A stretch of 55,233 nt of DNA from Nitrososphaerales archaeon. Lineage in GTDB: Archaea; Thermoproteota; Nitrososphaeria; Nitrososphaerales; Gagatemarchaeaceae. The position numbers and the translations under genes are program-made. Within the stretch, counting starts at the first letter, position 1. The number at the start of each line of letters is the position of its first letter. The notes under the pieces were generated by a model, which did not search any database, had not been told where the DNA came from, and saw only the letters and a list, made by a program, of their open reading frames with translations. This document shows positions 2,398 through 54,781 of this stretch, one piece after another. The stretch spans positions 1-55,233 of the forward strand of contig JASHPA010000137.1 in the NCBI GenBank assembly GCA_030038365.1, written 5' to 3'.

Positions 2398-3285
2398 CTA
2401 CGCCGTAAGGTAGAGGAGCGTCGCTACTCCGACCAAGGAGATTGCGATCCCGAGCAGCTGATTTGGTTCAGGTTTCTCCTTCCGGAACACCATGCCGTAG
2501 CATGCGAGGAAGAACCCGCCCATCCCGGAGGTCATGATCACCAGGGGCAGGAGGTTCCCTGCAGTCGTAATTCCTCCCCCGAGCGTGAGATATCCGGCGG
2601 TGTCGAATATGGCCACCAGCCAGACATACGGTCCGACGGCTTTCCAGCTGGGTCTGACGTCGCGTTTCAGGATGGGGGAGATGGCGAACCCGATGGCGGC
2701 CGCACCTGCCTTGAGCACTAGTGTGGGAACCAGGTATCCCACCTCAGGCACGACGACGGAAAGGGCCACAAAGACGAAGGAGAAAGAGCATGCGGCCGCC
2801 AGGCCGGAGAAGACACCCGAGGTCACGATGGTACCACTCCGGTCGGCTCCCGATTTCCTTAGGTCGGAGAACTTCGTGGAGATCAGTATCACGCCTCCCA
2901 TGACCGCTGCGAGCGGTGGTCCTTCGACGAGCGTCAGTTTCGTTCCGAGGAAGACCACGTCAAGCAATATCGCGATCGCCGGGGCGGTGTAGGCTATCGG
3001 AGCGACCACCGACAGCGGGGCGGAGTGATAACCACCGTACGCGAAGACGTAGGCCGACAGGAAGCCGACGGATGCGAGGGGCAGCAACAAAAGCCAGCTG
3101 GATGACAAGGAAGTATCCGCGCCGAGGATCACGATGAGGAACGCTAGCAACGGGATGCTGAGCAGACAGGAGTAGACCGTCGTCGCGTAGGCTCCTACTC
3201 GCGCCGAGGCGAAAGTCGATATCCAGTCGCCCGTACCCCATAACAGAGCCGTGACTAGACCCAGGGCGACCGATAGGACTGCAAT
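2398..3285 (-). CDS. EamA/DMT-family transporter, apparent near-cognate start
   Basis: This is a ten-helix drug/metabolite transporter with two EamA halves, probably exporting a small metabolite. The first canonical start in frame is TTG at 3150, which would give only 250 residues and remove the first helices. The frame stays open upstream to a TAA at 3304-3306. It there encodes a typical EamA N-terminus (VLSVALGLVTALLWGTGDW), so translation must begin further upstream. No ATG, GTG or TTG is available. The ATT at 3285 gives 295 residues, the normal family length. A TATA-like box at 3316-3324 predicts transcription from about 3294, just before this codon. A base error or start-codon mutation is the alternative. 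Confidence 0.75.
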   Translation of the reverse strand: MAVLSVALGLVTALLWGTGDWISTFASARVGAYATTVYSCLLSIPLLAFLIVILGADTSLSSSWLLLLPLASVGFLSAYVFAYGGYHSAPLSVVAPIAYTAPAIAILLDVVFLGTKLTLVEGPPLAAVMGGVILISTKFSDLRKSGADRSGTIVTSGVFSGLAAACSFSFVFVALSVVVPEVGYLVPTLVLKAGAAAIGFAISPILKRDVRPSWKAVGPYVWLVAIFDTAGYLTLGGGITTAGNLLPLVIMTSGMGGFFLACYGMVFRKEKPEPNQLLGIAISLVGVATLLYLTA

Positions 3286-3315
3286 AGACGGATCGAGCCG
3301 TCCTTAAGATGGACT

Positions 3316-3324
3316 GGTTATAGC
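3316..3324 (-). promoter_or_regulatory. TATA-like box of the EamA gene
   Basis: On the minus strand it reads GCTATAACC. It predicts a transcript start near 3294, which excludes any translation start further upstream and supports a start at 3285-3297. Confidence 0.5.
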
Positions 3325-3427
3325 AGTTTCGAGAAAGACGAGCAGACTCCGTGACCAAGCCGGCAGTGGTCGGGACGCTGCGTTCGAAGAGCTTATCTTG
3401 TCCGGGGCGCGGAATCTTTCGGAGCCG

Positions 3428-3703
3428 ATGGGAATGGAGAGAAAGATGCCAACGGAGGAGGAGAAGGCCCGGTTCAGGAATATGATGAACGAGATGATCA
3501 AGGCGCGCATCGAGATGTTTGCGACGGCTGCGCCGGATTACGCACGCGCGCTGGGGACCTTCCGCGCCGAGCTACAAAAATCTGGTTTTTCGCCCGAGGA
3601 GTCGATGCAGATAGTCCTGAAGGTCGCCGACCAGCAAGGTCCGAGGGGCTTCTGGGGCGGAAGGCACCGCCACCGGCACAAGGACGAAGAACCTCACCAT
3701 TAG
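3428..3703 (+). CDS. Small helical protein with His-rich tail
   Basis: This is a 91-residue protein I do not recognise. It is mostly charged helix (MPTEEEKARFRNMMNEMIKA) and ends in GGRHRHRHKDEEPHH, a possible metal-binding tail. The ATG at 3428 is preferred over an upstream TTG at 3398 because a possible TATA-like stretch lies around 3389-3398. A second ATG follows at 3434. It is divergent from the EamA gene. Confidence 0.65.
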   Translation: MGMERKMPTEEEKARFRNMMNEMIKARIEMFATAAPDYARALGTFRAELQKSGFSPEESMQIVLKVADQQGPRGFWGGRHRHRHKDEEPHH

Positions 3704-3763
3704 AGGTCGCAGGGTTTTTACTCACCCTGCGGCGGAATGTAAGCCTTGCAGAACAGCGGTAGG

Positions 3764-4723
3764 ATGGCAGGTCAGAAGCCGCACTTTTCGATGCCGGCCG
3801 AGATGAAGCTCGGCGCGCCGACGCTGCGGGTGAGGGACGTCACCGAAGCACTCACATTCTACAGACAGGACTTCGGTCTCGGTCTGACGCGGAGCTATGA
3901 AGACCCGGCCGATGGCCTTCAGGTTCATGAGCTCGCACCCGCCGCTTCTTCCGAGCCTCTGCTGATTCTCAAGGAAGACAGGGCTGCGGCAACCCCAAGT
4001 CCAGACTTTGCCGGCCTGTACCATTTTGCGGTCCTCGTGCCTACGAGAAAGAGCCTCGCTTCGACCTATCTCGCGCTGGGGATGTCCGGGGTGAACTACG
4101 ATGGCTTCGCCGACCACTACGTCTCGGAGGCGCTCTATCTCCACGACTCTGCGGAGAATGGCATAGAGGTCTATGCAGACAGACCGAAGGAGACTTGGTC
4201 CTCCTTCAAAGTCTCTTCCTCAGAGGACCGAAGTGCCGCGATGGAGCGGTTCTCCTCTCTAAACAAGCCCCTCGACTTCGGCTCGCTACTGAGGGAGTTG
4301 GACAGCAGGGAGAGGACGACTCCCGTGAAGTTCGCTGAAGGGGCAAGAATCGGGCACATGCATCTGAGGGTGACCAATCTGCCGCGGTCCGTGGAGTTCT
4401 ACCATGAAGCCATGGGACTAGACATCATGGTGAACTCACCTGAGATTGGCGCAGCCTTCCTCTCCGTTGGCGGCTACCATCACCACCTTGGGCTGAACGT
4501 GTGGCACAGCCACGGAGGAGCTCAACATCAGAAAGGAGAGGCTGGTCTGGATAAGTTCACGATGACCGTGACGGACGCTAAGGTACTCGACGAGCTCGAC
4601 GAGAACCTGCGTACCCATTCGGCCAAGTTCGTCAGGGACGCGGACCACCTTGTGACGACAGACCCCAACGGAATAATAGTCGAGGTCCATGGACGAAAGA
4701 CTACGGTTTCACGCGCCGCGTGA
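3764..4723 (+). CDS. Two-domain VOC protein, catechol-2,3-dioxygenase-like
   Basis: This protein of about 319 residues has two vicinal-oxygen-chelate (glyoxalase/extradiol dioxygenase) domains, like bacterial CatE proteins. The metal ligand pattern is present in each half. In the N-terminal half there is a His in LYHFAVLV and a Glu in NGIEVYADRP. In the C-terminal half there is a His in GHMHLRV, a His in GGYHHHLGLN and a Glu in GIIVEVHG. It is likely an Fe(II)-dependent ring-cleaving dioxygenase or related lyase; the aromatic substrate is unknown. ATG at 3764 is chosen over TTG at 3746. An APC permease follows on the same strand with its own promoter. Confidence 0.85.
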   Translation: MAGQKPHFSMPAEMKLGAPTLRVRDVTEALTFYRQDFGLGLTRSYEDPADGLQVHELAPAASSEPLLILKEDRAAATPSPDFAGLYHFAVLVPTRKSLASTYLALGMSGVNYDGFADHYVSEALYLHDSAENGIEVYADRPKETWSSFKVSSSEDRSAAMERFSSLNKPLDFGSLLRELDSRERTTPVKFAEGARIGHMHLRVTNLPRSVEFYHEAMGLDIMVNSPEIGAAFLSVGGYHHHLGLNVWHSHGGAQHQKGEAGLDKFTMTVTDAKVLDELDENLRTHSAKFVRDADHLVTTDPNGIIVEVHGRKTTVSRAA

Positions 4724-4767
4724 GTTCAGTTCATTTCTAATGCCGCCAGGAATCGGAGCGGCTGACG

Positions 4768-4776
4768 CTTAAATAC
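4768..4776 (+). promoter_or_regulatory. TATA-like box upstream of the first APC permease
   Basis: The sequence CTTAAATAC lies 82 bases before the ATG at 4858. It would imply a leader of about 60 bases, longer than for most genes here. Confidence 0.4.
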
Positions 4777-4857
4777 GAACGTCATCCGCCATTAGAGCGC
4801 CGGTTGTACGCCGCATTATCGTTTGCGCCAACTCTGGCATCGGAGGCAGTTGTCTAG

Positions 4858-6462
4858 ATGGCCGCCACCAAGACCTGGACGAGGGATGCCACTGGTCTCG
4901 TCAGGGAACTCGGTCCGTGGGACGTGCTTATGTTCGCATTCGTCCTGCCCTGCATCATCTACGTCGGCCACTACATGCTCTTCTCGGCCGGCCTCTATCC
5001 CGGCAGCGACTTCTTCCTCGGCTCGATTTTCATCTTCACATTCATCCCACTCAGCGTGATTTACCTTCTCTTCACCGTGGCGATGCCAAGGTCGGGCGGC
5101 GAGTACGTCTTCGGTTCGCGCGTCCTCTCGCCCGGCTGGGGCTTCTTCGCAGGGTGGGCTCTGCTCGTAGCAGGTCCTTTTTCATCCTCGGTCTCGATCA
5201 TGATCCCCGCCGTCACCTACGGTCTCGGCGACCTGTTCGCCGTCTGGGGACTCGAGACGGGTAACAAGGGGTCGGTCAGCTTGGGCGAGACCCTCGCCCA
5301 GCACGCAGGGATACCTGGTTTCGTCCTGATGGTCCTGATATGGGTCGGCTGCTTCGTGATAGCGAGTATCGGGATGCGCACCATCAGGTGGACGATTTGG
5401 ATAACAGGGACGATCCAGTGGATAGCTCTGGCCATCTACGTCATAGTGATGGCGGGCACGAACTTCTCGGCCGCCACTGCGAATATGGCACACCTCACAG
5501 GTGTCACGTACCAGGAGCTCGTCAACACGGTCACGCCGGTGGGCTACGCGCCGGGGCTGTACTCCTACAGCGCCACAGTCTACGCCGGGTTCACCTATGT
5601 CGCCCTAGCCGTCTTCGGGTGGACCTTTGTCTCCAACATAGCAGGTGAGATAAAGACCAGGTCGATGGTGAGGTCGATGTTCTTCGGTCAGATAGGCTCG
5701 CTGTGTCTCCTCGCGCTGTTCACGGCCATCTTCGCCGGAATCACGTACTACGGCTTCTCCAGAGACTTTGTGAACGCCCTCGGCTTCCTCGCGGCAAGCG
5801 GTAAGGATGTGGGTCTCTTCGGGGTCCCGATGGGCATGAGCTTCGCGGTCGCCTTCGCGACGAACAACCCGTATCTTGCGATAACGCCCGCGATCGGATA
5901 TGTCGTCGCCTCGATAGGGATATCCGTCACATTCGCGGCGATGGCCACGAGGAATCTCTTCGCTTTCTCCTTCGATGGGATACTTCCTCAGGCGATGGCG
6001 AAGGTGAGCAGCAACGGATCCCCGCGCATCGCTACCTTCGTGGCGCTGATTCCGGGAATCCTCTTCCTGGCGGTGGGACAATTCACCACGATACTCTCGC
6101 TCTTCGCCTACCTGGTCATCCTGTGGTTCGCGGCCTATCTAGTGGTAGCCATAGCCGCGATTGTCTTCCCTTACAGGCGGAAAGAGCTGTTCAACTCGTC
6201 GCCCGACATAGTGAAGAAGCGGGTTGGGGGCATTCCCATCATAGTCATCATGGGGGTTGCCACCCTCATAGAGTGCATAGCTGGGATCTATTCGATAGTA
6301 GGCCCTGCTACCAGCGGCGGTTTCATCTCTGTGGGCCCACTTCTTTACAGCACCCTCATCCCGCTCGGCTTCGGCTGGGTGATCTACGGGATAGCCTACT
6401 ACTACAACAAGTCGAGGAACACTCCCTTCGCCCTCAGGTTCAAGGAGATTCCTCCGGAATAG
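4858..6462 (+). CDS. APC-superfamily amino acid/amine permease
   Basis: This is a 534-residue integral membrane protein with about 12 hydrophobic segments. It carries the APC signature region MPRSGGEYVFGSR near helix 2 and ends in a basic cytoplasmic tail. It should import an amino acid, amine or related solute by cation symport. The N-terminal stretch TRDATGLVREL is nearly repeated in the second APC permease at 15.4-17.1 kb (LRDATGLVKEI), so the two are paralogues. Neighbouring dioxygenase and dehydrogenase genes suggest uptake of a carbon or nitrogen source, but the substrate is not determined. Confidence 0.92.
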   Translation: MAATKTWTRDATGLVRELGPWDVLMFAFVLPCIIYVGHYMLFSAGLYPGSDFFLGSIFIFTFIPLSVIYLLFTVAMPRSGGEYVFGSRVLSPGWGFFAGWALLVAGPFSSSVSIMIPAVTYGLGDLFAVWGLETGNKGSVSLGETLAQHAGIPGFVLMVLIWVGCFVIASIGMRTIRWTIWITGTIQWIALAIYVIVMAGTNFSAATANMAHLTGVTYQELVNTVTPVGYAPGLYSYSATVYAGFTYVALAVFGWTFVSNIAGEIKTRSMVRSMFFGQIGSLCLLALFTAIFAGITYYGFSRDFVNALGFLAASGKDVGLFGVPMGMSFAVAFATNNPYLAITPAIGYVVASIGISVTFAAMATRNLFAFSFDGILPQAMAKVSSNGSPRIATFVALIPGILFLAVGQFTTILSLFAYLVILWFAAYLVVAIAAIVFPYRRKELFNSSPDIVKKRVGGIPIIVIMGVATLIECIAGIYSIVGPATSGGFISVGPLLYSTLIPLGFGWVIYGIAYYYNKSRNTPFALRFKEIPPE

Positions 6463-6473
6463 GACGCGTGCAG

Positions 6474-7256
6474 CTAGTACATAGTAGAGCCGCCGGTCAC
6501 GTTGAAGTCCTCGCCGGTGACGTAAGATGCCTCGTCGGAGCAGAGGAAGGCCACCGCGTTCGCTATGTCCTGCGGGGCTGCATACCTTTTGAGGGGGATC
6601 ACGCTTGTGTAGAAGTTCAGTCTCTCCTGCTCCGTGATCCCGAAGATACTCGCCTCGTCCTGCGTGCTCTTCCTGAAGAAAGCCGTATCCACGTTGCCGG
6701 GGCAGACGGAGTTCACGTTGATGCCGTAGGGGGCGAGTTCGTGGGCAACAGCCCTGGTGAAGGCAATCACTCCTGCCTTGGATGCACTGTAGTGTGCTCC
6801 TGTCGCAAAGGGAGCCTTGCCCGCCTCCGACGCGATGTTGACAATCTTCCCTCCCTTCCCCTGCGCTATCATCTGTTTCGCCGCAGCTTTGGTGCATAGG
6901 AAAGTCCCGCGGAGGTTGACCGAGTGAACCCTGTCCCACTCCTCCTCTGCCAGGTCTACTACGTAGAAGTTCGAAATGACGGCAGCGTTGTTGACCATTA
7001 TCTCGAGCGAGCCGAACTTTGAAATTGTCCTCGCGAAGAGTGACGCCACGTCCGGGGACTTGGAAACGTCGGTACGGAAGTGCTCTGCCTCCCCTCCCTT
7101 GGCGGCTATCTCGCTCGCTGTCGACGCAGCGGTGTCGGCGTTGATGTCCGTGACCATTACCTTAGCTCCGGCAACGGCTAGCGTGATCGCCGTGGCGCGG
7201 CCAATCCCAGCACCGGCGCCCGTCACTATCGCGGTCTTTCCCCCGATTCCTGTCAT
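6474..7256 (-). CDS. Short-chain dehydrogenase/reductase (classical SDR)
   Basis: This 260-residue protein is a classical SDR with a Rossmann fold. It has TGAGAGIG (residues 12-19) for NAD(P), NNAA at 89-92, the active-site Ser at about 143 and the YSASK pair Y156/K160. An acidic D37 after the second strand (VTDIN) favours NAD over NADP. It ends in VTGGSTMY, typical of the 3-oxoacyl-ACP reductase/glucose dehydrogenase-like branch. It converges on the APC permease with an 11-base gap. The substrate is unknown. Confidence 0.92.
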   Translation of the reverse strand: MTGIGGKTAIVTGAGAGIGRATAITLAVAGAKVMVTDINADTAASTASEIAAKGGEAEHFRTDVSKSPDVASLFARTISKFGSLEIMVNNAAVISNFYVVDLAEEEWDRVHSVNLRGTFLCTKAAAKQMIAQGKGGKIVNIASEAGKAPFATGAHYSASKAGVIAFTRAVAHELAPYGINVNSVCPGNVDTAFFRKSTQDEASIFGITEQERLNFYTSVIPLKRYAAPQDIANAVAFLCSDEASYVTGEDFNVTGGSTMY

Positions 7257-7339
7257 GGACGGTATTCCCCGAGATAGGTTTTAGAGGTTTTTCCGCGCCC
7301 CTGTCTCGGATTTAAGGGAGGTCACGCAATGGGGTCTCC

Positions 7340-8353
7340 ATGAGATACGCGGAGACCACGCTGAGCCTGATAGGAAACACCCCACTTCTGCGGCTGAGGA
7401 ATGTGACAGCGGGTCTAGGCTCGAGCATATTCGTAAAGTGCGAGTACCTTAATCCAAGTGGGAGCATCAAGGACAGGATGGCCCTCAAGATGATAGAGGG
7501 TGCCGAGAAGTCAGGCAAGCTCAAGCCCGGAGGGACTATCGTCGATATGAGTAGTGGTAACACGGGACCTGCCCTCTCGTTCGTGGGTAATGTCAAGGGC
7601 TACAGGGTCAGGTTACACATCCCCTCGAAGTGGACGGGGAGCTATAATCCGGAGAACAGGATAAAGCTGATGAGGCTCTTTGGCGCCGACGTCACGCCTA
7701 TAGACCTCGACAGTTACCGCGGGCAGCTGCAAGGTCTAACTGGGCAAGAATATGCCGCTGCCGCCTTCGCTCTCGGCATGAAGGCCTGCTACGACCTCGA
7801 ACGTCAGGACAGCTCGTTCTGGTGGGCTGACCAGATGTCCAACCCGGACAACACGCTTGCTCACGAGCTTGGTACAGGAGCGGAAGTCATCGAGCAGCTC
7901 GACGGAAAGCTGTCGGCATTCGTCGCCTCCATCGGAACCGGCGCTACCCTGCTTGGAGTAGCGCACGCGCTCCAGTCCAGTTCAATCGGTGCCAAAGTCG
8001 TCGGGGTCGAGCCCGAGGACTCCAAGGTGATCGAGGAATGGGCCAGAACAGGTTTCCTCAACGACTATCTCGAGAAGCTTGGGATGCCGCGGAGAAAGTA
8101 CATCATCGAACAGATGGTCGAGGAGGGTGTCCCGGAGCGGATGGTCCACGTCGGGCACGAGGAAGCGAGGGAAATGGCGAACCGCCTGTGCAAGGAGGAA
8201 GGAATCTTCTGCGGTATATCGTCCGGTGCGAACGTCCACGCCGCGCTACACGTAGCAAAATCACTTCCACGCGGGTCCAACATAGTGACGGTCTGTGTTG
8301 ACCGGAGGGACAGGTACCTCCCAGAGCATCCTGCCGAAAACTACGTAATCTGA
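7340..8353 (+). CDS. Cysteine-synthase-family PLP enzyme
   Basis: This 337-residue fold-type II PLP enzyme is related to O-acetylserine sulfhydrylase and cystathionine beta-synthase. The PLP lysine is K44 in SGSIKDR. The substrate loop SSGNTGPAL and the phosphate loop GTGATLLG are present, with GISSGANVHAA near the C-terminus. It most likely makes cysteine from O-acetylserine or O-phosphoserine and sulfide, though family members also act on other beta-substituted amino acids. The residues around K44 and SSGNTG are intact, so it should be active. Confidence 0.88.
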   Translation: MRYAETTLSLIGNTPLLRLRNVTAGLGSSIFVKCEYLNPSGSIKDRMALKMIEGAEKSGKLKPGGTIVDMSSGNTGPALSFVGNVKGYRVRLHIPSKWTGSYNPENRIKLMRLFGADVTPIDLDSYRGQLQGLTGQEYAAAAFALGMKACYDLERQDSSFWWADQMSNPDNTLAHELGTGAEVIEQLDGKLSAFVASIGTGATLLGVAHALQSSSIGAKVVGVEPEDSKVIEEWARTGFLNDYLEKLGMPRRKYIIEQMVEEGVPERMVHVGHEEAREMANRLCKEEGIFCGISSGANVHAALHVAKSLPRGSNIVTVCVDRRDRYLPEHPAENYVI

Positions 8354-8367
8354 GTCTGGGGCGCGCG

Positions 8368-8730
8368 TCAAACGGCTGCATAGGTGACGAAGACTCCAGT
8401 CTTCCGGAGAGACTTGTCCGCATAGTCGATCTCCAGACCCAAGCCTTCAAGAGCATCCGCGCCCAACACCTCCGCATCGTCGACCTCTCCAAAGACGACT
8501 ATCCTCGTTGCCTTTTCTCCCATTACTCCCAACAGCGGTTCGCCGGTCTCCCGTGCCAGTTCCCTGCCTTCGATCGTCCTGAACCTTCTCGTCGCGGTCG
8601 GCTTCACTCCTGCCAACTGCAACGAGTCACGAGCTATTCATGTTAGGAGCGAACCCGTATCGACCAGGAGCTTCAGCGATAAGCTGCTGACCGGCCCGGT
8701 AACGGACACCTCGGCGTAGGTCATTCCCAT
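8368..8730 (-). pseudogene. Retropepsin-like aspartic protease gene interrupted by an in-frame TGA
   Basis: From ATG 8730 the frame encodes MGMTYAEVSVTGPVSS and then the aspartic protease motif LLVDTGSLLT. It meets TGA at 8638-8640. The same frame continues without another stop to 8368, encoding the rest of the domain (RRFRTIEGRELARETGEP, VVFGEVDDAEVLGADALEGL). Members of this archaeal clan AA family commonly have Trp or a hydrophobic residue right after this DTG segment, so TGG-to-TGA is the simplest lesion. Only one base separates it from an intact 120-residue protein. It may be a recent pseudogene, a sequencing error or, less likely, readthrough. TGA is a normal stop elsewhere in the window. 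Confidence 0.75.
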
Positions 8731-8777
8731 AGAAGTTTACGACCGCATCGACGTTAAGCTCCATTGTGTTCTACGCG

Positions 8778-8786
8778 AATATATAC
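8778..8786 (+). promoter_or_regulatory. TATA-like box of the epimerase gene
   Basis: AATATATAC, centred 49 bases before the ATG at 8831, is one of the best TATA matches in the window. Confidence 0.5.
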
Positions 8787-8830
8787 CAAGCTGGGCGCGA
8801 AACGCCGATGCACAGCAGGACAACAGACGT

Positions 8831-9784
8831 ATGACGACCTTCCTGATAACGGGCGGAGCCGGATTCATTGGTTCATGGCTTTGCCGTTCGTTGCTGGCAG
8901 ACGGGCACGACGTCACCGTGATGGACACGCGGCGGAGCCATCTTCTGGACGCTGCCGGGAAGATAAAATTCGAGAAGGGAGACATATCATCGTCTGAGAC
9001 GGTCGCCGAGGTGTTGAGGAAGCACCGTCCCGAGACGGTAGTCCACTATGCGGCCCTCCTATCAGCAGACGCGGAGGCCGACTCGTCCCTAGGCTATCGG
9101 ACCAACATAGCTTCCATCTGGCCTCTTTTCGAATCCGCCAGGACTGCGGAAGTCGAATCGGTTCTCTTCGCGAGCAGCAACGCGGCGTACGGCCCAGATG
9201 TAGGTTCTGTCGCCGAGGAGAGGATCTATGCCATCCCCACGACGATCTACGGGATCTCCAAAATCTACGGTGAGATGATCGGAACCTGGTTCTCCAAAAA
9301 GTATGGCATTCGCTTCGCGGCCTTTCGCTATGCGTCCGTGATTGGCCCTGGCAGGGGGCTCGGTGGGGCTTCTGCGTACACCTCTCTCATGATTCAGAAG
9401 CCGGCACAGGGAGAGGCCTATGACGTAGACGTCCGCGAGTCGTCCCGCCTCCCCATAGTCTACGTGAAAGACGCCGTCGGAGCGACCCTATTCGTGTACA
9501 GGAACCTCAGAAGAGCCAAGCAAACGGTATTCAACGTATGCGGGCTCGCCAGGTCGCCCACAGCCGTCGAGATGGCACGCGCCGTCAGGCGACGCCTCCC
9601 TGGTTCGGAGATTCGGTTCAGGCCGAAAGAAGAGGTAGTGAAGATAGTTGATTCGTGGGCCAGGAACTCCTCGACAAGGAGGCTGTCCTCGATGGGATGG
9701 AAGCCGCAATATCCGGACCTCGATGGCCTCGTTTCGGACTTCATCGATGAAGTGAGAGGAAATCCGAAAGTCTACCGGATTTGA
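8831..9784 (+). CDS. Extended SDR, NAD-dependent nucleotide-sugar epimerase/dehydratase family
   Basis: This is a 317-residue extended SDR. GGAGFIG near the N-terminus binds NAD. VHYAALLS is the family HxAA-like segment, followed by FASSNAAYG and the catalytic YGISK (Tyr and Lys). The conserved RYASVIGPGR segment is also seen. It is related to UDP-glucose 4-epimerase and to L-threonine 3-dehydrogenase-like enzymes. No neighbouring glycan genes indicate which sugar or acid it acts on. Confidence 0.88.
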   Translation: MTTFLITGGAGFIGSWLCRSLLADGHDVTVMDTRRSHLLDAAGKIKFEKGDISSSETVAEVLRKHRPETVVHYAALLSADAEADSSLGYRTNIASIWPLFESARTAEVESVLFASSNAAYGPDVGSVAEERIYAIPTTIYGISKIYGEMIGTWFSKKYGIRFAAFRYASVIGPGRGLGGASAYTSLMIQKPAQGEAYDVDVRESSRLPIVYVKDAVGATLFVYRNLRRAKQTVFNVCGLARSPTAVEMARAVRRRLPGSEIRFRPKEEVVKIVDSWARNSSTRRLSSMGWKPQYPDLDGLVSDFIDEVRGNPKVYRI

Positions 9785-9793
9785 GGACTCATC

Positions 9794-10153
9794 TCAGACA
9801 GGCACTTCCACATACGTGTCATGTCTGGGATAGTACGAGTCAGACCACTGGGACTTGTATTTCGCCCTGAGCTGGTCTATGATTCTTCCTGCCTCTGCAG
9901 GGTCCGGTACCAGCTTCGCCTTGGACGATACGGAGGCCCCGCCAACACTGAGACTGATTTGCGGGTCTTCCACGAGATTCCTGAACCATGGCGTCTCCGC
10001 GCCCTTCACTGGGACTATCCTGACGGTCCTTTCTTGCAGGATGAACCAGACCGGAGTCGAACGCTCCTTTTTGGTCTTCCGTCCGGTGACACTGATCTTC
10101 ACCTCGTCCGAATTCTTTAGCTTGCTCAGAAAATCTTCGTGGGTGGTGGCCAT
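9794..10153 (-). CDS. F420-dependent (Ddn-like) nitroreductase-family protein
   Basis: This 119-residue protein has the split-barrel fold of the deazaflavin-dependent nitroreductase (Ddn/DUF385) family. It has KISVTGRKTKKERSTPVW followed by a central strand set and WFRNLVEDPQISLSVGG. Relatives bind cofactor F420, which is common in archaea, and reduce quinones or other electrophiles. It converges on the epimerase gene with a 9-base gap. ATG at 10153. Confidence 0.82.
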   Translation of the reverse strand: MATTHEDFLSKLKNSDEVKISVTGRKTKKERSTPVWFILQERTVRIVPVKGAETPWFRNLVEDPQISLSVGGASVSSKAKLVPDPAEAGRIIDQLRAKYKSQWSDSYYPRHDTYVEVPV

Positions 10154-10257
10154 TCTAGGTCGTTGGAATGCGGCTCCCCGCGTTTAAGTGATTTTGGGCT
10201 GTTTGTTCCCCTGCCTTACCTATTTACGACCGTCCCGAAAGTGGAGACGTCAGAGTG

Positions 10258-13567: not shown

Positions 13568-14285
13568 CTAACTCTTTATGAACGCCAGCAGCTCCGCATT
13601 GACGGTGTCCTTGTGCGTCGAGCACATCCCATGCGGGGCGCCCCGGATGAGTTTCAGCGTCGCGTTCTTCACTACCTTCGCAGTCAGCAACGCCGAGTCG
13701 GTTACAGGGACAATCTGGTCATCGTCTCCCTGAAGCACGAGTGTGGGGATGCCGATCCTTCTGAGGTCCTCACTGAAGTCGGTCTCGGAAAATTGCTTGA
13801 CACAGTCATAGACGGCCTTATGCCCTGCGAGCATCCCCTGCAGCCAGAATGAATCACGAAGACCCTGTGAGACCTTCGAGCCCGGCCGGTTCGCGCCGTA
13901 GAAGGGAACCGCGAGGTCCTTGAAATACTGCAACCGGTCTGCGAGGACACCTGCCCGAATCTGGTCGACGACCTCGATAGGGGTCCCGCCCGGGTTGGCG
14001 GTGTCTTCACCATGATTGGTGACACTGCGCCGATAAGGACCGCCTTGGAAAGGTGTTTCGTACCATGTCTCCCTTATGTAACGTGCGACCTCGCCTCTCC
14101 GCCCGTCGAGTGCCCGACATGGACGACGTCCTTCAGGTGCAGGTGGTCGATGAGTTCCGAGACATCGTCGGCGTAGGTGTCCATATCGTTGCCGTTCCAC
14201 GGTTGGTCTGAGCGTCCGTGACCGCGGCGGTCGTGCGCGATGCACCTGTACCCCTAGATGCAAGAAAGAGCGCTTCAATGAACGG
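13568..14285 (-). pseudogene. Decayed non-haem chloroperoxidase-type alpha/beta hydrolase
   Basis: The C-terminal half is intact in one frame (PGGTPIEVVDQIRAGVLADR, SFWLQGMLAGHK, the acid region VLQGDDDQIVP, and the catalytic His in GAPHGMCSTHKD). Upstream, the family sequence is spread over different frames. LFLASRG lies in one frame and [13 protein letters not shown] to HVGHSTGG (nucleophile elbow with its Ser) in a second. GEVARYI is in a third, and HGTKHLSKAVLIGAVSP is in another. At least four indels are needed, and the N-terminus is missing. This is a real pseudogene rather than one base error. Confidence 0.85.
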
Positions 14286-26304: not shown

Positions 26305-26606
26305 CTCAGTTTTTGACACAACTGAGATTTGATTGTCAGGAGATTGCCGACGTTGCTATCTCGCACTCACCGTCCTCCCTCGACCGCTCCCTTGGCCAAG
26401 AATTCGGACCCGACTATCGGGATTGGCCAATCCACGACCTCACAGACGCCATGTCAATCTCCTTGATCCGCATTATCTCCATATCCCAGATGCGTCCGAG
26501 AGTTTCGCTAGTCCACTGGTCAAACTCCGGCGGCCGTTCGCGAGGAGTTCTCTTACCCACTTCGCGAGCTTCGTCTCTTCGTCGAGGAGCGCCTCTTTTC
26601 TTGGCA
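26305..26606 (-). pseudogene. Frameshifted relic of a two-gene A/B module
   Basis: From ATG 26606 the frame encodes MPRKEALLDEETKL-AKWVRELLA, almost the same as gene A at 45.4 kb. One missing base then shifts the frame. The next frame continues RPPEFDQWTSETLGRIWDME and stops at 26414. Immediately downstream the B-like sequence is also split: SREDGECEIA in one frame, then NVGNLLTIKSQLCQK in another. Order, strand and spacing match the intact module. This copy is clearly decayed. Confidence 0.7.
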
Positions 26607-26732
26607 TAGCTGCCACGCGCCGTGTTCTAACCAATAGACGCCGACGACGGGAACAGATCGACAGAACCGGCGCGCCGGCAATCGCGCGTATATAGCGCGA
26701 CGTGCGCGGTCCCGCATGACGGGAGCCAGAGG

Positions 26733-42142: not shown

Positions 42143-42625
42143 TTAGTACCCTAGCCTCGCGGTTTCCTCGGGGTCCTCTATGTCTATCGAATGAAGACCT
42201 TCCTGCTGAGCTATCCCGAGCAGTGCTTTGTCGGCAGAGACTAGTCTGTCAGCCTTCGAGTGGAGACACTGGACTAGCTGGAGTGCGTCGGCCTGATAGA
42301 TGTGATATTTTCTGATGAGGTCCCAGGCGTCGCCGATTTCGGACGAACCGAGTGGCAACAATTCGAGCGACTCTATCCTCAAGAGTCGGAGGGTCTCTCC
42401 GGCGAGTTGTCCCAAGGCGATCCCCGACTGTTCCTTGGTGATCCAACCTCTTCGCTGGTACTGGTCTATGATGCCGATAGTCTCTCCGAGGTTCCACAGC
42501 GAAAAGCAGATGTCTACCTCCTTCGCGTCAGATGCCTCATAGATTCTGGCTGCCGCTTCGCTTCCTTTCTCAGCGATGTAGCGCTTGACGATGACGCTAC
42601 TGTCTAGATATAGCCTTGTCGTGAC
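42143..42625 (-). CDS. PIN-domain toxin (VapC-like), no canonical start codon
   Basis: The frame contains a full PIN ribonuclease domain: the first catalytic Asp in RLYLDSSVIVKRY, the Glu in LWNLGETIGII, then YQADALQL and SADKALL. ATG, GTG and TTG are absent upstream of TTG 42415, which would delete the first two acidic sites. The conserved N-terminus requires a start near GTC 42625 (or ACG 42622), overlapping the antitoxin by 29 bases. Translation may be coupled to the antitoxin, or a GTG-to-GTC change has silenced the toxin. Confidence 0.75.
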   Translation of the reverse strand, partial: VTTRLYLDSSVIVKRYIAEKGSEAAARIYEASDAKEVDICFSLWNLGETIGIIDQYQRRGWITKEQSGIALGQLAGETLRLLRIESLELLPLGSSEIGDAWDLIRKYHIYQADALQLVQCLHSKADRLVSADKALLGIAQQEGLHSIDIEDPEETARLGY

Positions 42626-42884
42626 GCCCGCCCCTCATCTCCCTTAGCACGGATCCCGCCGAGGTAATGACTGAAGGCTTTACCGCAACGACCCGCGTGG
42701 AGCTAAGGCCTTTGGATGGAATCTTCATCTTCTGGAACGCGGTCGCGACCCTTTCCTCCACGATAGCGTCCTTGATTAGGCTCTCGACCTCTGAGCTCAG
42801 AGCCCGCGGATCACCGGTCTTTCTCAGCACCGCCCTCCTGAACTTGGTCCAGGTCTCGTCCCCGACGTAGAGGCTCACCTTCAT
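42597..42884 (-). CDS. VapB-like antitoxin (ribbon-helix-helix)
   Basis: This 95-residue protein starts with a short beta-strand (KVSLYVGDETWTKFRRAVL), a ribbon-helix-helix DNA-binding pattern, then a helical region and a polar tail (EMRGGRHDKAISRQ) that would bind the PIN toxin. It should repress its own operon. ATG at 42884 is preceded by a TATA-like box around 42911-42918. Confidence 0.78.
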   Translation of the reverse strand: MKVSLYVGDETWTKFRRAVLRKTGDPRALSSEVESLIKDAIVEERVATAFQKMKIPSKGLSSTRVVAVKPSVITSAGSVLREMRGGRHDKAISRQ

Positions 42885-45249: not shown

Positions 45250-45423
45250 CTATTCTTTTTCACATAGCTCGGCGCGTATAATCAGAAGGTTGGCCAGCGC
45301 CGCTATCTCGAACTCGACATCTTCCCTGGAATGTTCCATGGCCCTCACGATTCTTTTCTTCACTACGGGTATCAGATTGCCGATGACCGCGCAGACTTCG
45401 GTGTCGACTTCTTCGCTGCTCAG
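45250..45423 (-). CDS. Gene B of the two-gene A/B module
   Basis: This 57-codon frame begins with CTG 45423, whose last two bases overlap the TGA of gene A (the junction reads CTGA). It encodes a probable helical protein with Cys near the N-terminus (DTEVCAVIGN), KKRIVRAMEHSREDVEFEI in the middle and RAELCEKE at the end. It matches gene B' at 48.48 kb at R-V/I-x2-A-x-E-x-S-x-E-x4-E-I-x-A-L. ATG occurs only late in the frame and would delete the conserved region. The family is not recognised. Confidence 0.6.
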   Translation of the reverse strand: MSSEEVDTEVCAVIGNLIPVVKKRIVRAMEHSREDVEFEIAALANLLIIRAELCEKE

Positions 45424-45560
45424 CGTCTACGCATCCTGGACATGTCCAGTGTTTCGTTGGCCCATCGCTCAAACTCGTCAGGGTTGGCGAGCAGCTCCCT
45501 AACCCACTTGATAGCTTGCTTTGTCTCCTCATCGAGCGACACTTCCTTCTTCTCTGACAT
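45420..45560 (-). CDS. Gene A of the two-gene A/B module
   Basis: This is a 46-residue protein with the core LDEETKQAIKWVRELLANP and EFERWANETLDMS, ending in RMRRR. The same pattern occurs at 48.36 kb (DEEALKKVHEMVNDPEKLKE) and in a broken copy at 26.6 kb (LDEETKLAKWVRELLA). It is helical and charged, with no known domain. ATG 45560 is supported by a TATA-like box at 45585-45595. Confidence 0.72.
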   Translation of the reverse strand: MSEKKEVSLDEETKQAIKWVRELLANPDEFERWANETLDMSRMRRR

Positions 45561-46054: not shown

Positions 46055-48244
46055 ATGCCGAAGTTCAAGACAACGGCCGAAGCGCTCAAAATCGTCCATA
46101 ATCAGGACCAGATTCGTAATCTGGGGATTATCGCTCACGTGGACCACGGCAAAACGACCACATCTGACTCTCTTCTTGCCGCCACGGGTATGCTTTCACC
46201 CTCTGTTGCAGGACAGGCGCTCGCTTTGGACTATATGGAGCTTGAGCAACAGAGACAGATGACGATCAAGGCAGCAAACGTCACTTTGTACTACGAGAAG
46301 GATAACAAGCCATATGTAATCAATCTTATCGATACGCCAGGCCACATCGACTTCACTGGCAAAGTAACGCGCAGTTTGAGGGCCGTTGATGGCGCAATCG
46401 TCGTAATAGACAGCGTTGAGGGTGTCATGACTCAGACTGAGACTGTCACCCGTCAGGCCCTCGAAGAACGGGTCCGTCCGGTCTTATACATCAATAAAAT
46501 CGACCGTTTAATCAAAGAGCTCCGATTAACGCCCGAAAAGATGCAGGAATGGCTTTTCAACCTCGTCAGGGATTTCAATCGTCTCATCGACACTTATGCG
46601 GAGAAGGAGTACAAGGAGGCGTGGAAGGTCACCATCCAGAACTCCCAGGTGGCCTTCGGCTCGAGCAAGGACAAGTGGGGCTTCAACTTCGACATGCTCA
46701 AGGCAGCGGGCATGTCCTTCAAGGACATCATCGAGGCCTACAACACGACGGGCCCGCAGGAGCTCGGCAAGAAGCTCCCGCTTCACGACGCGCTGCTGGG
46801 CATGGTCGTCAGGCATCACCCGGCCCCTCACGTAGCGCAGAAGTACCGCATCCCCAAGATCTGGCAGGGCGACATCAACAGCCCCCTGGGGCAGGCGCTG
46901 GTGAACTGCGACGAGAACGGTCCGATGGTCATGATGGTCACCAACGTCGTCGTCGATCCGGCCGCGGGGCTCGTGGGCACAGGACGGCTCTTCTCCGGGA
47001 CTATCAGCAACGGCGACGAGGTCTATCTGCTCAACTCAAAGAGGCAGGGCAAGATCCAGTCGGTCCAGATATTCATGGGCTTCCAGAGGGAAATCGTCGA
47101 CTCGCTTCCGGCGGGCAACATCCCGGCTCTGCTGGGCCTCGACATCAGGTCGGGTGAGACGATAAGCACCGTCAAGGACGTCGTCCCGTTCGAGTCCATC
47201 CACTACGTCTCAGAGCCGGTCGTCACGACCGCGGTAGAGGCAAAGCACCCGAGAGACCTCCCCAAGCTCGTCGAGGCGATGCGCAGGCTCAACATCGAGG
47301 ACCCGAATCTCGTCATAACGATCAACCAGGAGTCCGGCGAGACGCTGATGGCCGGAATGGGTGTCCTCCACCTCGAGATAGCGACGACGATGCTCCAGCA
47401 GCAGGGCCTCGAGATAATCACATCGCCACCCATCATCAACTACAGGGAGGCGGTCAGGGCATCCGCCGGCCCCATAATGAGCCGCTCGCCCAACAGGCAC
47501 AACAAGATATTCATCAAGGTGGAGCCGCTCGACCCTGAGATAATCGAGCTCATCCGCAACGGTACCCTCAACGAGATGGCCGACAAGAAGGGCATCCAGA
47601 AGACGCTCAGGGACCACGGCTGGGACTCAGACCAGGCGCGCTCGGTCGTCACGATCGACCCCAAGGGCAACATGCTCACAGAGGAGACGAAAGGTGTCCA
47701 GTACCTGCAGGAGTCGATGGACTCCATCAGGGCCGGCTTCGAGGACATCATGCAGAACGGGCCGCTCGCCTACGAGATATGCAGGGGAGTCAAGGTCACC
47801 CTGACGCACTACGTCCCACACGAGGACCCCGCTCACAGGACCTATGCACAGCTCATGCCGGCGACGAGAAGGGCGATCCTCGGGGCGATGCTCACCGCGA
47901 ACCCTACGCTCCTTGAGCCGATACTCGCGATAGAGGTCAAGGGGCCCGGAGACCTCATCGGTGCCATCACGGGCGTCATCAGCTCGAAGAGGGGCAAGCT
48001 CGTCAACGTCGAACAGAGGGAGGTCGTCACCATCATTCAGGGAGAGATTCCCGCTTCGGAGACCTTCGACCTCAGCGAGGTCATGAGGGGGGCCACAGCA
48101 GGCAAGGCCACATGGAACACGTCTTTCAAGACCTGGCAGTCCATCCCGACGAACATGCTCGCGCAGGTGGTCACGGACACGAGGAAGAGGAAGGGCCTCT
48201 CGCCTGAGCCGCCGAACCCTGCAGAGTTCATCGATAAGGAGTAA
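46055..48244 (+). CDS. fusA: Translation elongation factor 2 (aEF-2)
   Basis: This 729-residue translocation GTPase has the P-loop AHVDHGKTT, DTPGHIDF and NKID, and ends in the usual EFIDKE. The switch I/G2 region reads QRQMTIKAANV, as in crenarchaeal-type EF-2. The diphthamide loop is HEDPAHRTYAQLMP: the modified His is present, but the next two residues are R-T rather than the usual R-G. Codons 1-182 use A/T-ending codons and five CGT Arg codons. From about 46,600 to the end almost every codon ends in G or C and no CGT occurs. The coding frame is continuous across the change. Confidence 0.97.
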   Translation: MPKFKTTAEALKIVHNQDQIRNLGIIAHVDHGKTTTSDSLLAATGMLSPSVAGQALALDYMELEQQRQMTIKAANVTLYYEKDNKPYVINLIDTPGHIDFTGKVTRSLRAVDGAIVVIDSVEGVMTQTETVTRQALEERVRPVLYINKIDRLIKELRLTPEKMQEWLFNLVRDFNRLIDTYAEKEYKEAWKVTIQNSQVAFGSSKDKWGFNFDMLKAAGMSFKDIIEAYNTTGPQELGKKLPLHDALLGMVVRHHPAPHVAQKYRIPKIWQGDINSPLGQALVNCDENGPMVMMVTNVVVDPAAGLVGTGRLFSGTISNGDEVYLLNSKRQGKIQSVQIFMGFQREIVDSLPAGNIPALLGLDIRSGETISTVKDVVPFESIHYVSEPVVTTAVEAKHPRDLPKLVEAMRRLNIEDPNLVITINQESGETLMAGMGVLHLEIATTMLQQQGLEIITSPPIINYREAVRASAGPIMSRSPNRHNKIFIKVEPLDPEIIELIRNGTLNEMADKKGIQKTLRDHGWDSDQARSVVTIDPKGNMLTEETKGVQYLQESMDSIRAGFEDIMQNGPLAYEICRGVKVTLTHYVPHEDPAHRTYAQLMPATRRAILGAMLTANPTLLEPILAIEVKGPGDLIGAITGVISSKRGKLVNVEQREVVTIIQGEIPASETFDLSEVMRGATAGKATWNTSFKTWQSIPTNMLAQVVTDTRKRKGLSPEPPNPAEFIDKE

Positions 48245-48363: not shown

Positions 48364-48498
48364 ATGAGCACATCGTTGCCCCAATCGGACGAGGAAGCTC
48401 TGAAGAAGGTTCACGAGATGGTGAACGATCCGGAGAAACTGAAGGAGTATGTGGCGTCTCGTCTTGACAGGGCTGTGAAGAATTGGCCTCGACGGTAG
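48364..48498 (+). CDS. Gene A' of the two-gene A/B module
   Basis: This 44-residue protein shares with gene A (45.4 kb) the core DEE-x-L-x2-V-x3-V-x-DP-E. It ends VKNWPRR, basic and aromatic like the RMRRR end of gene A. ATG at 48364. Its stop (48496-48498) overlaps the start of gene B' by 16 bases. It sits 119 bases after EF-2. Confidence 0.65.
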   Translation: MSTSLPQSDEEALKKVHEMVNDPEKLKEYVASRLDRAVKNWPRR

Positions 48499-54389: not shown

Positions 54390-54781
54390 ACGAGATATCA
54401 GGCGGGGTGTCCTTACATCACGCCCCTGCGCGCAAATTCCAGCGAACTGCGTTGCACTCAGGCGAAAAACCAGCAAGAGCGGCACGTCGATTGATGGAGG
54501 ATGCGAAGTTCGAGCTCTGGGCCAACATAGGTGTTAATCAGGGAGGGGATGATGGAGTTCGATATGGTCGCTCAGACGCTTCGATCCCCGGCTGCGCTCG
54601 ACTCGAACGAGTTCAAGCCGATCTCGGACCATTATCGCCAGAGAAGAGGCCTGAGGATAAGTGCGTGCAGGATTCCCAGCGGCCCGGCACGAGGACCAAG
54701 TACATGTCGAAGAGGGGTGCTTCTGGTCCTCGTGGTAACACCTCGGATAAGTGAGTCCGACTCCGCTCTGACTCTAGCGCC
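54390..54781 (+). other. Intergenic stretch with a weak A-like ORF
   Basis: Between the MoxR operon and the next gene, a frame from TTG 54451 encodes RAARRLMEDAKFELWANI, reminiscent of gene A (RELLANPDEFERWANE). No B-like partner follows, so it may be chance. Otherwise nothing is seen. Confidence 0.3.

Follow-up and report, generated by a model that had tools for sequence, protein, structure and literature searches.

A decayed copy of a two-gene module, a candidate toxin-antitoxin-like cassette, in a soil Nitrososphaerales archaeon

Introduction

The locus analysed here, in a MAG of a soil Nitrososphaerales archaeon, raises the question of whether a disrupted stretch of about 300 bp is a dead copy of a small two-gene module, gene A followed by gene B, and what kind of element such a module would be. 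The window is the whole 55,233-nt stretch of DNA that was analysed. A sequence-only reading had described positions 26305-26606 as a third, frameshifted and dead copy of the module, and had proposed that the module spreads and is then lost, as expected for mobile or addictive small systems.

Results

The relic and the intact copies

Alignment of 26305-26606 with copy 1 bore out the homology; the frame is broken once in A and four times in B. The limits of the relic were corrected to 26607-26310 on the minus strand, where the full length of the module is recognisable with its frames disrupted. The features of the three copies in the window are as follows.

26468..26607 (-): gene A relic (copy 3); ATG at 26607 kept, break near 26533, one codon lost, 4-codon insert
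26310..26464 (-): gene B relic (copy 3); four frame breaks
26631..26638 (-): decayed promoter box TCTATTGG, 31 bases upstream of the relic ATG
45420..45560 (-): copy 1 gene A; 46 aa, intact; profile match 73 bits; pS/pN against G007 0.84/0.14
45250..45423 (-): copy 1 gene B; 57 codons, open; CTG start; 4-nt overlap with the A stop; 88 bits
45586..45593 (-): TATA-like box TTTATTAG, 33 bases upstream of copy 1 A
48364..48498 (+): copy 2 gene A; 44 aa, intact; profile match 48 bits
48483..48674 (+): copy 2 gene B; 63 aa; TTG start; 16-nt overlap with A; profile match 80 bits

Counted over the whole genome, the relic is one of at least five copies and not of three: two live copies in the window, the relic itself, one live copy on C117 and one with a broken B on C57.

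In frameshift-aware alignments, 26601-26468 (-) matched residues 4-44 of copy-1 A with 29 of 40 residues identical (score 123), and 26464-26310 (-) matched residues 4-56 of copy-1 B with 27 of 53 identical (score 98). With A alone as query, tblastn recovered the relic in two pieces (joint E 4e-6). A blastn match of 96 nt had 71% identity (E 4e-5). When the other members, with the relic left out, were made into a frameshift-aware A-then-B profile, this profile scored the relic at 79.7, compared with 38.5 for the best non-module place in the window and at most 34.7 in the three shuffled windows used as null. Scored separately by profile dynamic programming, relic A reached 48.2 (23.1 or less in the rest of the window, modules excluded) and relic B 31.5 (at most 21.2 in shuffles). 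Chance similarity to A/B is ruled out by the shuffle scores. The box TCTATTGG is the counterpart of the copy-1 box TTTATTAG, from which it differs at two bases; both lie within GGCG(box), at 31 bases from the ATG in the relic and 33 in copy 1. With five frame breaks in 300 bp and open adjoining genes, the description of the locus as dead holds.

Two further places in the window were recorded. At 54526-54658 (+), the frameshift-aware A/B profile matched weakly (38.5, against 34.7 or less in shuffles), possibly marking a further, much older relic, and at 13568-14278 (-) a hydrolase-like gene has its start apparently in another frame, a possible pseudogene or error.

Relative to copy 1, differences at first, second and third codon positions number 4/9/25 in A and 18/15/33 in B, with pS about 0.9, meaning that synonymous sites are saturated, and pN 0.17 (A) and 0.28 (B); the frame-aware alignment biases slightly towards this pattern. 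The saturation rules out a recent duplicate of copy 1. Since pS is about 0.9 and most differences in A fall at third codon positions, the relic appears to have worked long and died late, having been under selection for most of its separate history; its B perhaps broke before its A. Flanking direct repeats were found around neither copy 1 nor copy 3. With the DUF1801 neighbour of copy 3 used for synteny, no empty or intact orthologous site was found among relatives, because these carry the DUF1801 gene with different neighbours. The proposed course of spread followed by loss is supported for the family, with about 60 copies, roughly half of them incomplete by a mechanical count, and an EF-2 slot that is occupied, decayed or empty among relatives. 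Copy 3 itself may have followed this course, but it has no flanking repeat left (p = 0.26) and is not a recent duplicate of copy 1. As a dead copy, 26607-26310 is in itself ordinary; the interest lies in the module and its slots.

Distribution, selection and loss

About 60 modules were collected from related Nitrososphaerales, 26 of 60 with both genes open under a mechanical classing into intact and incomplete that undercounts divergent A genes. An order-wide search of 400 genomes found A in 22 and B in 23, nearly all of one family and with at most seven per genome, and a phylum sample (398 genomes) added one borderline match; by these searches, the A/B family appears confined to the order Nitrososphaerales. 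In nearly all modules, A precedes B on the same strand. Pooled pS/pN was 0.62/0.15 for A and 0.70/0.19 for B, and with pS well above pN, purifying selection marks both as real genes.

At no fewer than five loci (G003:C11-, G014:C275, G103:C27, G000:C57, G007:C11), A is kept with B deleted or broken. G014:C275 (L048) and its sister locus G013:C247 (L055) are 96-98% identical, and about 295 bp including gene B are gone in G014 with A intact. Inspection of eight apparent cases of B without a full A revealed an open A in six and gave an ambiguous picture in the other two. Loss therefore looks one-sided, mostly sparing A, on few cases. As a separate observation, an 80-nt sequence recurs at a spacing of about 125 nt near two A/B modules at L091 (G003:C37).

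Proteins and expression layout

A and B had no significant match in Pfam, NCBIfam, PHROG or PADLOC and none by sequence in the PDB, and searches of plasmids, phages and viral contigs found no relative. A has about 44-56 aa with a basic tail and B about 53-63 aa, both charged. The AlphaFold2 models show A as two helices (pLDDT 80) and B as a helical hairpin (pLDDT 90); fold searches with these models gave no significant match, B returning unspecific helical hairpins only.

B lies in a different frame from A and overlaps its end by 4, 16, 28, 58 or other lengths. At fixed B start positions, ATG, TTG and CTG interchange among modules, as start codons do; the CTG of copy-1 B is ATG or TTG in relatives, and the 26 intact pairs use TTG (9), ATG (9), CTG (7) and GTG (1). 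A TATA-like box lies at -45..-20 of A in 18 of 37 modules, against a background of 1.6%. The modules thus consist of two small, overlapping, co-directional genes with one promoter, the layout of type II toxin-antitoxin pairs. From this arrangement we infer that the archaeal TATA-like box would drive a short, leaderless mRNA encoding A and then the overlapping B. Since B usually starts at a weak codon (TTG, ATG or CTG) inside A or at its stop, it would probably be made by translational coupling, through re-initiation, and in smaller amount than A.

The EF-2 slot and neighbouring toxin-antitoxin genes

Copy 2 lies downstream of the EF-2 gene (46055-48244), whose end recurs at the end of copy 2 gene B.

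48224..48244 (+): left repeat, the 3' end of the EF-2 gene, GAGTTCATCGATAAGGAGTAA
48654..48674 (+): right repeat, a second copy of the EF-2 3' end, GATTTCATCGACAAAGAGTAG; 17/21 identical to the left

The EF-2 gene ends in GAGTTCATCGATAAGGAGTAA, and the final codons of copy 2 gene B extend into the right repeat, so that this gene ends in GATTTCATCGACAAAGAGTAG. Three of the four differences between the repeats are synonymous in the EF-2 frame. The EF-2-end site occurs only twice in the window (2 occurrences in 20 shuffled windows), and since these two ends flank copy 2, copy 2 is the content of a 430-bp unit.

Among relatives, the EF-2 slot of G010 holds a 440-bp unit with a decayed A/B, and G004 and G005 have a single, unoccupied EF-2 end. 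In G003 (L123, G003:C11), two identical EF-2 3' ends enclose a 562-bp unit at 5411-5973 with a single HicA/HicB-like pair, which was recognised by eye. In G007 (L122, G007:C42), seven copies of the EF-2 3' end stand in tandem downstream of EF-2 (2469-10181, minus strand), with A/B in one interval, MazE and PIN in another, HicAB adjoining an A/B relic (the identity of HicB being weak: UPF0150 E 7e-6, HicB-like E 7e-4), and a histidine phosphatase-like ORF in or beside the intervals. Over all loci, direct repeats flank 11 modules at a level that none of 400 null draws reached, bounding units of mostly 368-459 bp, and one of these repeats (G060) resembles a tRNA 3' end; most modules are without flanking repeats. 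Comparison of unit ends made no terminal inverted repeats evident. No tRNA genes that could serve as targets were found in the window, and two lie near other modules. The module-bearing contigs carry no integrase, and several module-bearing genomes are without any; Cas1 was found in only 8 of 21 module-bearing genomes, in no case together with a module.

Among 150 small ORFs flanking modules, Pfam identified PIN (3), PIN_3 (1), RHH (3), DUF4258 (2), MazE (2) and ParE (1); a smaller control set, 55 small ORFs in 100 kb taken from these genomes, had no toxin-antitoxin genes. The module is closely followed by a DUF4258/DUF2283 pair on C117 and by a ParE/RHH pair on C57. In the window, a PIN-domain ORF (E 2e-4, just below the Pfam cut-off) stands beside a VapB-like ORF at 42143-42884 (-), about 2.4 kb from copy 1.

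Discussion

On balance we take A/B to be, probably though by no means securely, a mobile toxin-antitoxin-like cassette of which 26607-26310 is a dead copy. The account that we infer, including toxicity, the roles of A and B, their coupling and movement itself, is that A would act as protector and B as the harmful partner of an addiction-like pair. The module would travel as a unit of about 370-460 bp that settles at the 3' ends of conserved genes, EF-2 above all; each insertion would duplicate the gene end, tandem arrays would form whose other units each contain a single ordinary toxin-antitoxin pair, and copies would then decay by frameshift or deletion, as at 26607-26310. This is the simplest account of the shared slots, the neighbours, the gene overlap, the patchiness and the loss that mostly spares A. 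The term 'addictive' of the sequence-only reading would suit the company of known toxin-antitoxin pairs. Counted against the cassette are the lack of any sequence or fold relation to a known toxin or antitoxin, the lack of flanking repeats around copies 1 and 3 and most other modules, the lack of an integrase on module contigs and in several module-bearing genomes, and the presence of Cas1 in only 8 of the 21.

More tentatively, it is possible that in soil Nitrososphaerales the EF-2 3' end, with other gene ends, is an acquisition site for minimal cassettes, each a few hundred bases long and holding a single toxin-antitoxin pair. An enzyme supplied in trans would insert them one after another and duplicate the gene end each time, so that capture would resemble that of an integron where no integron is present; A/B would then be one of several cassette types and represent a new toxin-antitoxin family.

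We consider it unlikely that A and B are helical partners serving ordinary regulation or structure, for instance as a small DNA- or RNA-binding complex without addiction, with copies that spread and die like those of other accessory genes. In its favour, both proteins are short, helical and charged and bear no relation to known toxins; the scattered multi-copy distribution, the repeated loss, the toxin-antitoxin-rich neighbours and the sharing of repeat-bounded slots with single toxin-antitoxin pairs speak against it. Rather improbable is a role of A/B in the movement of its own unit, as an excisionase-like or target-recognition factor for an enzyme encoded elsewhere, with selection for transposition in place of addiction. 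A/B can be the sole content of repeat-bounded units of 370-460 bp, and thaumarchaeal casposons are known to land at EF-2 (PMC6563490); however, A/B is absent from other units of one and the same array, which contain HicAB or MazE-PIN, and is therefore dispensable for a unit settling at EF-2, and no terminal inverted repeats were seen.

Programmed frameshifting, by which A and B would form one protein and the frame breaks would belong to normal expression, is very hard to maintain: 31 modules share one offset of B from A and several B genes have no ATG, GTG or TTG start, but 14 modules have the other offset, the overlap varies in length, there is no common slippery sequence, and ATG, TTG and CTG alternate at one position like start codons. 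Least credible of all, to the point of being negligible, is the view that sequencing errors have disguised a working third copy, or that the resemblance is due to chance. The A start, the promoter position and the codon-like substitution pattern are all kept, but five breaks in 300 bp beside open genes are hard to ascribe to sequencing error, and the score stands far above the shuffles.

Taking A/B as a toxin-antitoxin-like cassette, its closest counterparts are the type II pairs (VapBC, HicAB, ParDE/RelBE, MazEF), which likewise consist of two small overlapping genes under one promoter, are mobile and patchy, and are found beside A/B and in the same slots; the A and B proteins differ in being shorter than usual, helical, and related in neither sequence nor fold to known families. 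Integron cassette arrays often hold toxin-antitoxin cassettes. The arrays described here resemble them in having tandem units, each with one small gene pair between recombination-site-like repeats, but the repeats duplicate the end of a host gene, module contigs carry no integron integrase, the promoter lies inside the unit, and both orientations occur. Integrons have been reported in archaea too (PMC9668308).

Thaumarchaeal casposons land most often at EF-2, family 1 inserting at its 3' end (PMC6563490). A/B units share with family 1 this landing site, the target duplication and the tandem insertion, and are unlike casposons in their size of 370-460 bp and in lacking Cas1, a polymerase and any terminal inverted repeats that could be seen. 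Elements integrated by tyrosine recombinases sit at the 3' ends of tRNA and protein genes (PMC6563490); A/B units likewise have gene 3'-end repeats on both sides, one of them tRNA-3'-end-like (G060), but are far smaller and have no integrase in the unit or on the contig.

The A/B modules add to soil archaea an undescribed multi-copy family of two genes, tied to insertion slots that lie, bounded by repeats, at the EF-2 end. Should the cassettes prove mobile, they would be among the smallest mobile units with an addiction-like cargo of their own, and the inserting enzyme, casposase-like or integrase-like, would become a concrete question.
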